Source: Acidobacteriota bacterium (GTDB lineage Bacteria; Acidobacteriota; Terriglobia; Terriglobales; Acidobacteriaceae). From it: DNA of 64,000 bases. The notes beneath the pieces were generated by a model, which saw only the letters and a program-made list of their open reading frames with translations, did no database searches and was not told the DNA's origin. This document shows, piece after piece, positions 28,819-46,254 of this stretch (position 1 is its first letter; each line of letters begins with the position of its first letter). Made by a program: the position numbers and the translations under genes. Where the stretch lies: positions 1 to 64,000 of the forward strand of contig QIBA01000055.1 in assembly GCA_003225175.1 (NCBI GenBank), read 5' to 3'.

Positions 28819-28885
28819 CCACGAAGGACACGAAGGTCACAAGGGAAACCAATCCGACTGCGCGTTCCTTCGTGCCCTTGGTGTT
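28818..28885. repeat. Family B inverted repeat, short copy
   Basis: CCACGAAGGACACGAAGG (28819-28836) and CCTTCGTGCCCTTGGTG (28867-28883) are imperfect complements around a ~30-base centre. It starts at the TatD stop and ends ~90 bases before yajQ. The GAAGGACACGAAGG wording links it to the longer family B copies at 43 and 46 kb. Confidence 0.7.
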
Positions 28886-42494: not shown

Positions 42495-42522
42495 GGAACC
42501 ACCCACTACCGCAGGTGGTTCC
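42495..42522. repeat. Short inverted repeat at the end of the peroxiredoxin-like gene
   Basis: GGAACCACC (42495-42503) and GGTGGTTCC (42514-42522) are exact complements around a ten-base loop. The stem straddles the minus-strand stop codon at 42506. GGTGGTTCC also occurs in the family C arms as GTGGTTCC, so this may be a related remnant that became the gene's 3' end. Confidence 0.55.
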
Positions 42523-43048
42523 GCGCCATAGCGACATAATCCACCTCATCCGCTACGCTTTCATGACGGAAAGACTTCAGTATCTCGGAGTAATGAATGA
42601 GGAACAGACCGGGTAGCTGGAAAGAGTCGCCTATGATCTTGCCCATGCCGTAAGTAAGCGTAATCCGATCGCGGAATTCCCGCTTCCAGACCTTAAGACC
42701 GAATAGCTGACTGAGCTTCCCGCGACGGAGAGAAAACGTCTTATAGAGCTTTTGCTCCGGATCGCTCACGCGGTGCTCCCCATTCAGTGCAAATTTCGAA
42801 AAAAATTTTTGCGCCTGCTCCTCTGTTCCCATGTGCACGAACGCCAACTGCGTTCCAGTCGCCGCGATCTCCGAGCGCTTCTTCCGAATCTCAGCCATGC
42901 CGGCGACGCAGAAGGGTCAACCAAACTGACGGAGAAAAACGAGCAGGAGTGGGCTCTCATCGCTCAATGAACCGAGGGTGGCTCCGGTTTGCGTGATTGC
43001 CTGCGTGAGTGCCTCTGGGATTGTGGTGCTTGTCGCGGCTTCAGCCAT
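42506..43048 (-). CDS. Peroxiredoxin-like protein with in-frame TGA at the catalytic Cys: candidate selenoprotein
   Basis: Read through one TGA, the minus strand from ATG 43048 to the stop at 42506 gives a 180-residue thioredoxin-fold protein of the AhpC/TSA-2 (peroxiredoxin-like 2) family. Upstream of the TGA is a normal N-terminal part ending PLLLVFLRQFG; after it come PFCVAGMAEIRKK, then LAFVHMGTEEQAQKFF and DSFQLPGLFLIHYSEILKSF. The TGA is codon 44 (42917-42919), exactly where family members have the first Cys of their CxxC site, so selenocysteine would give a UxxC motif with Cys47. Both sides are intact. Start codons after the TGA would lose the active site. A simple Cys-to-stop mutation is the alternative. 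Confidence 0.72.
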
Positions 43049-43060
43049 TTAGGTCAAAAA

Positions 43061-43192
43061 CACTTGAACACAGAGGAGACGGAGGGTACGGACGGGAACA
43101 TCAAAATGGAGGTCGTCCTGCTCCGCCAGATCCATTCAATCCGTGTTCCGAGTCTGGTGTCCACCTATGTACCCTCCGTCCTCCGTGTTCAG
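43061..43192. repeat. Family B inverted-repeat element, copy at 43 kb
   Basis: The left arm CACTTGAACACAGAGGAGAC continues to 43087; the right arm ACCCTCCGTCCTCCGTGTTC is at 43171-43190. They are near-complementary. Inside, ATTCAATCCGTGTTCCGAG is shared with the inner part of the 46 kb copy. The element fills the space between the selenoprotein-candidate start and the S9 peptidase stop. Confidence 0.8.
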
Positions 43193-46020: not shown

Positions 46021-46254
46021 CACTTGAACACGGCGGCGCCACGGAGGACACGAAGGGAGGTCAAAACTGGAACACGTATTGAACGGCTGGACTAAGCTCG
46101 GTTCGACCTATCAATCGGGTGATTTTGTTATCCGCACTCGTTAGATTGCAAAATACAGAATCGCCTCGGAACCGTTCAATCCGTTATATCGGTCTTCCAG
46201 CAGTTACTTTTTTCTCATTCCCCTCCGTGCCCTCCGTGTTCATACTTCTGGTGC
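46021..46254. repeat. Family B inverted-repeat element, long copy
   Basis: The left end CACTTGAACACGGCGGCGCC continues ACGGAGGACACGAAGGGAGG to 46060. The right end from 46220 (CCCTCCGTGCCCTCCGTGTT, then CATACTTCTGGTG) is its approximate complement. A second, inner pair (GGAACACGTATTGAACGG and CCGTTCAATCCG) lies inside. The ~230-base unit has no coding content and fills the nth-FN3 intergenic region, the only notable content of 45965-46331. Confidence 0.8.

Follow-up and report, generated by a model that had tools for sequence, protein, structure and literature searches.

A predicted SelL-related selenoprotein with an in-frame UGA at its active site in an Acidobacteriota genome

SelL is said to be a peroxiredoxin-like (Prx-like) selenoprotein with a UxxU diselenide. 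In the accessible part of PMC2398784 it is named as a selenoprotein of both prokaryotes and eukaryotes. The table of a review, as far as its accessible part goes (PMC13188914), gives Prx-like thiol:disulfide oxidoreductase selenoproteins with UxxC/UxxU motifs under PF00578 and a peroxiredoxin-like family protein, cd02970, as a UxxS selenoprotein, and has no row named SelL-related; cd02970 is entered as pfam13911 in the available text of PMC9312934. For the phylum Acidobacteriota, the accessible text of a 2006 survey reports four selenoproteins in three families (PMC1794560), and that of PMC12013277 three selenoproteins in one genome. In the open-access literature searched (supplements and preprints aside), as far as its searchable text goes, no paper on SelL-related selenoproteins in Acidobacteriota was found, and the NCBIfam model NF040769 (SelL-related redox protein) was not found in any paper.

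The gene described here lies in a stretch of 64,000 nucleotides (hereafter, the window) on contig C55 of the host assembly (5.73 Mb, 98.9% complete). It runs on the minus strand from an ATG at 43048 to a TAG ending at 42506, with an in-frame TAA as the codon directly before the ATG and a single in-frame TGA, which falls in the context FLRQFG-U-PFC, a thioredoxin-fold site. The original prediction, made from the letters of the window, had placed this TGA at codon 44, at the first Cys position of FG-U-PF-C, and its coordinates, codon and motif position all held on re-reading. It had also expected a gene caller to miss the active site, and indeed a 130-aa ORF at 42506-42898 is all that the mechanical list reports in this frame; standard ORF finding cuts the active site off the product. 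On sequence grounds, the best explanation, and one we hold to be very probable, is a 180-residue SelL-related thioredoxin-fold protein in which UGA44 is read as selenocysteine (Sec) by the host machinery with a hairpin, giving a UxxC pair. The features of the locus are collected in Table 1.

Table 1 Positions of the predicted selenoprotein gene and its features in the window
Feature	Position	Strand	Remarks
SelL-related selenoprotein gene (predicted)	42506..43048	-	180 residues, Sec at 44; read-through frame and NF040769 match
In-frame TGA, predicted Sec codon (Sec44)	42917..42919	-	Codon 44; column is TGA in 64/115 family loci
Putative resolving cysteine codon (Cys47), UxxC motif	42908..42910	-	Of 64 TGA loci, 59 have Cys here, 4 have Sec and 1 has Pro
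Downstream ATG (Met51)	42896..42898	-	Opens the sole mechanically listed ORF in the frame of the gene
Distal SECIS hairpin candidate	42864..42900	-	Apical loop GGAA 42885-42882, 31 nt past the TGA
Proximal SECIS hairpin, alternative candidate	42882..42913	-	Contains the GCC/GGC stem; -8.9 kcal/mol, within bSECIS limits

With Cys written for Sec, the read-through product matched Pfam AhpC-TSA_2 (PF13911) at 42 bits (cut-off 27), the assignment made in the original prediction, AhpC-TSA (PF00578) at 28.5 bits (cut-off 26) and, over residues 9-171, NF040769 at 130.9 bits, against a cut-off of 120. In the NF040769 genome search the window gene scored 121.9 bits. The gene had been put forward as a new selenoprotein; the column, the machinery and the relatives bear out the selenoprotein part, but the NF040769 match above cut-off removes the claim to a new family. 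The window gene almost certainly encodes a redox enzyme with Sec in its active site; it joins a known family of selenium proteins as a well-supported new member, and is a solid addition to the few selenoproteins reported from the phylum.

To place the TGA among its relatives, we read the same codon in homologues. An orthologue was present in five of the six genus genomes including the host; the other four orthologues were 62-81% identical and all had TGA at the column, so its retention is more than chance. The sixth genus genome (G108) had the paralogue type only, also with TGA at the column. A search of the taxonomic family (398 genomes) found 44 genomes with a match at E < 1e-22, comprising 5 with TGA, 38 with Cys and one, G101, that has Asp and lacks Cys; in the phylum search with NF040769 (396 genomes), 61 genomes had a match at E <= 1e-20, 37 of them above cut-off. 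Across the 115 family loci the codon was TGA in 64 (UxxC 59, UxxU 4, UxxP 1), TGC in 36, TGT in 14 and GAC in 1; the alignment of homologues called for by the original prediction thus shows TGA or Cys in exactly the TGA column. From the family search the count takes in the 44 genomes at E < 1e-22 and a further 18 paralogue loci, found in 15 genomes that have the paralogue alone and in three of the genus, and no weaker match. Of the NF040769 matches, two extra copies in G706 and a partial one in G593 are not counted, nor are the proteobacterial L023 and the duplicate L145. L039 (G265), at first entered as having an internal TGA, has Cys at its active site.

A tree was then built on 116 rows (L145 left out, L023 kept) after both motif columns had been blanked; it required 6 Sec/Cys changes, at least 4 of them on starred branches, compared with 37.9 in shuffles. 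The five orthologues formed one starred clade within a 56-row branch in which 47 rows are Cys. The proteobacterial record L023 (45% identity) is a Cys form and was the sole near homologue found outside the phylum. Odd active sites were seen in L108 (G101; Asp..Thr), L124 (G444; Sec..Pro), and L103 (G043) and L136 (G652; both Cys..Ser). TGA stood at both motif positions, the UxxU arrangement of SelL, in four loci of the phylum (L067, L070, L078, L144). A different peroxiredoxin-like gene, L062 (G108 C31), has a TGA in a GYW-U-PFC site. The SelL-related proteins could represent a large undescribed Acidobacteriota selenoprotein lineage, with repeated Sec/Cys exchange, UxxU diselenide forms and, in one large branch, a SECIS with a fixed AGUU apical loop, a reading to which we give slightly less than an even chance. 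The related Sec, Cys and UxxU forms offer a natural experiment, in which gain or loss of Sec can be compared with whether a genome has the Sec machinery.

Substitutions were then compared on the two sides of the TGA. Against G054, dN and dS were 0.124 and 1.126 for the 36 codons preceding the TGA and 0.087 and 1.207 for the 132 that follow it, and the third codon position changed most on both sides in 10/10 pairs of the five orthologues; several of the orthologue dS values were saturated, and dN before the TGA was higher, up to 0.53. This pattern of substitutions shows that the protein is under constraint to either side of the TGA. Such purifying selection speaks against a pseudogene, in which a nonsense mutation or sequencing error would have struck an ordinary CxxC gene, as do the same TGA in five separate genus assemblies, host included, and the occurrence of TAA or TAG in 0/115 loci; the close relatives outside the genus are Cys forms, as a pseudogene would have it (38/44 family genomes at E < 1e-22, genus included), and we nonetheless consider this origin highly improbable. 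Equally hard to credit is a true stop, with the 130-aa protein from Met51, devoid of the active site, as the working product: a standard ORF does exist from 42898, but the 36 codons upstream change mostly at third positions in each orthologue pair, albeit with a dN above that past the TGA, and the TGA column is otherwise Cys.

Gene order around the locus is partly conserved within the genus. Of the four other genus genomes with an orthologue, three (G054, G135, G171) have an S9 peptidase gene next to it and two (G054, G135) have the STAS and kinase genes there; in G154 neither the S9 peptidase nor the STAS/kinase genes were found within the stretch available. Separately, the window holds ACGGAGGACACGGAGG-like repeats at 28821-28836, 43070-43094, 46041-46056 and 46222-46237 (5 matches with at most 3 mismatches, 0.6 expected), and an inverted repeat with 26-nt arms, 77% complementary, adjoins the window gene (43078-43103 and 43155-43180).

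The host genome was searched for the Sec machinery, and selA (554 bits), selB (377 bits, 679 aa), selD (371 bits) and tRNA-Sec (64.4 bits), the four genes on which the original prediction depended, were all found. The tRNA-Sec model exceeded its cut-off in 5/14 control genomes, and the host call therefore rests on the 64.4 bits together with ARAGORN, which calls SeC with anticodon tca. The prediction had also taken a nearby gene as a hint of formate dehydrogenase, and fdhA (L094, G000 C75) is present in the same genome with one in-frame TGA, as is selD (L056, G000 C38), also with one. A second SelL-related host gene, L019 (C50:92543-92968), has a TGA at the same active-site place in the motif GUIFC and a hairpin whose AGUUGA loop lies 25 nt past the UGA; it scores 107.6 bits against NF040769, below the cut-off of 120. 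Since selD and fdhA each carry an in-frame TGA, the sequence of the host genome likely includes at least four selenoprotein genes.

The presence of this machinery also bears on an altered code or general read-through, in which TGA would be read as another residue in the host. For this explanation no supporting point was found. TGA is an ordinary stop elsewhere in the window, ending 9/30 long non-overlapping ORFs (>=250 aa), and 114/115 loci have TGA or Cys at the column, which points to Sec; we consider an altered code the least probable of the alternatives. Decoding of UGA44 as Sec is the reading we retain.

We then compared the codon with the machinery across genomes. selA was over the cut-off in 181/398 genomes of the taxonomic family, and a strong selA match was present in 19/20 TGA-form genomes (5 with an orthologue and 15 with the paralogue only) and 8/38 Cys-form genomes (Fisher p 3.8e-8, a test that treats related genomes as independent; tree-independent pairs numbered only 4, too few for a test). 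Matches weaker than E 1e-60 were counted as absent, with several Cys genomes having matches at E 1e-4 to 1e-8, and among the eight selA-bearing Cys genomes G175 and G099 had selA at weaker E than the other six. G171, which has the orthologue with TGA, gave no selA match and a tRNA-Sec of 64.9 bits in an assembly 83% complete. In a survey of 65 chosen genomes (14 family genomes, some picked for having selA, and 51 others), tRNA-Sec at >=60 bits was detected in 42/44 TGA genomes and 15/21 Cys genomes, the latter rising to 17/21 if the Rfam cut-off (47 bits) is applied. The tRNA-Sec search found none at >=60 bits in G154, which has selA, and G607; these two and G171 are draft assemblies of 83-96% completeness. 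The 60-bit line was our own choice; other matches in the same genomes reach 53.5 bits, and these are presumably other long-armed tRNAs, while G072 had a second match to the tRNA-Sec model at 62.5 bits. The selA and tRNA-Sec counts therefore indicate that TGA goes with the machinery, and Cys occurs with or without it.

To seek RNA structure that could act as a SECIS, we used the bacterial SECIS (bSECIS) limits given in the accessible part of PMC13188914: an apical loop of 3-9 nt with G in its first two places, an upper stem of 4-16 bp, a distance to the UGA of 16-37 nt and an energy of -7.5 kcal/mol. The null was within-gene synonymous shuffling, which keeps the protein and the codon use. Over 6-51 nt past the codon, the mean folding energy of 65 TGA loci was below that of 200/200 shuffles, whereas for 51 Cys loci 38/200 shuffles were as stable (these sets include L023 and L145), and the z-scores of the two groups differed with p 7e-4 (6-51 nt) and 2e-8 (12-48 nt). 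In the scan with the published limits as we coded them (L023 and L145 left out), 47/64 TGA loci fell within them (11-25 in 12 shuffles), as did 17/50 Cys loci (9-17), a figure for the Cys loci equal to the highest of their own shuffles. The strongest simple hairpin had an AGUU loop exactly 25 nt past the UGA in 33/64 TGA and 0/50 Cys loci, and all 33 lie in one tree branch, which holds 44 Sec rows. Protein constraint may explain part of this conservation, because the loop overlaps conserved codons.

For the window gene itself, two hairpins are candidates (Table 1). The distal one folds at -7.3 kcal/mol, just short of the -7.5 limit, with a top helix of three pairs. Across the five orthologues 88.9% of the cells of its stem were paired, compared with at most 60.0% when it was slid, and pair counts and covariation were not beyond shuffles. 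A GCC-GGCAU-GGC stem, offered in the original prediction as a possible SECIS, is present within the proximal hairpin but is poorly kept, with 66.7% of cells pairing in the five orthologues and 147/500 shuffles as high; it was not preferred because the distal stem keeps 88.9%. The distal rather than the proximal hairpin would be the SECIS, perhaps twice as probably. The letters GUCGCC and GGCGAC, for which the original prediction proposed a longer-range pairing, are both present in the gene.

The alifold energy of this region over the five orthologues was below 499/500 synonymous redraws; the window gene alone had an ordinary RNA energy (z -0.32), and two of the five orthologues fell within the strict bSECIS limits, through different stems. 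The scan is positive for the family and mixed for the window gene, for which the SECIS evidence taken by itself is weak. In the three nearest TGA loci outside the five, RNA structure over 6-51 nt was not significantly in excess (0.05 to 0.35, depending on the measure). RNAalifold, in an analysis that left out L023 only, gave no shared structure for the 27 GUIFC loci, probably because the set is diverse and ungapped: an AGUU loop common to them does appear when sequences are scanned singly. Rfam at the gathering threshold gave no match in the 64-kb window.

The AlphaFold model, computed with 8 sequences, had a mean pLDDT of 78.6, with residues 117-137 poor, and it has residue 44 just before helix 45-63. 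Its fold matches, which mark it as thioredoxin/peroxiredoxin-like, include an alkyl hydroperoxide reductase from Burkholderia (Z 16.1), PrxQ/BCP peroxiredoxins (up to 16.0) and ResA (14.4), and a sequence profile, with ResA first (E 1e-6), found the same groups. We propose that UGA codon 44 would be decoded as Sec by the SelA/SelB/SelD/tRNA-Sec system of the host, with the aid of a coding-RNA hairpin shortly past the UGA, to place Sec44 and Cys47 as a UxxC pair at the helix start. Sec44 would then most likely attack a disulfide or hydroperoxide, Cys47 would resolve the Sec44 intermediate, and a thioredoxin-like donor would reset the pair. The sequence itself shows the reading frame, the Sec/Cys column, the machinery, the constraint and, across the family, the surplus of RNA structure; we infer from these Sec insertion, the identity of the SECIS, the chemistry (selenol-disulfide oxidoreductase or thioredoxin-dependent peroxidase activity), the substrate and a location inside the cell.

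Among known systems, SelL is related to the window protein by NCBIfam name and has Sec at the same first motif position; SelL proper has a UxxU motif, and the window protein has U-P-F-C in its place. The Prx-like UxxC/UxxU selenoproteins in the accessible table of PMC13188914 share UxxC and a peroxiredoxin-like fold with the window protein, which also passes PF00578, although its better Pfam match is PF13911. With the cd02970 peroxiredoxin-like protein it shares Pfam AhpC-TSA_2, and the motif there is UxxS as opposed to UxxC here. It departs from the classical peroxiredoxin pattern (TxxC/TxxU), in that Sec44 stands three residues before Cys47 and Gln41 three before Sec44. Human prostamide/PGF synthase (9us9, 9usa), the entry title of which names C44 and C47, matches the fold over 153 residues (Z 15.4, rmsd 3.2) at 18% identity, with Cys rather than Sec. 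NF040769 has the same site pattern ([UC]xx[UC] in 111/115 loci read) and no decisive difference from the window protein, which is among its lower-scoring members above cut-off, and the window gene's clade of five has PFC or PYC after the Sec.
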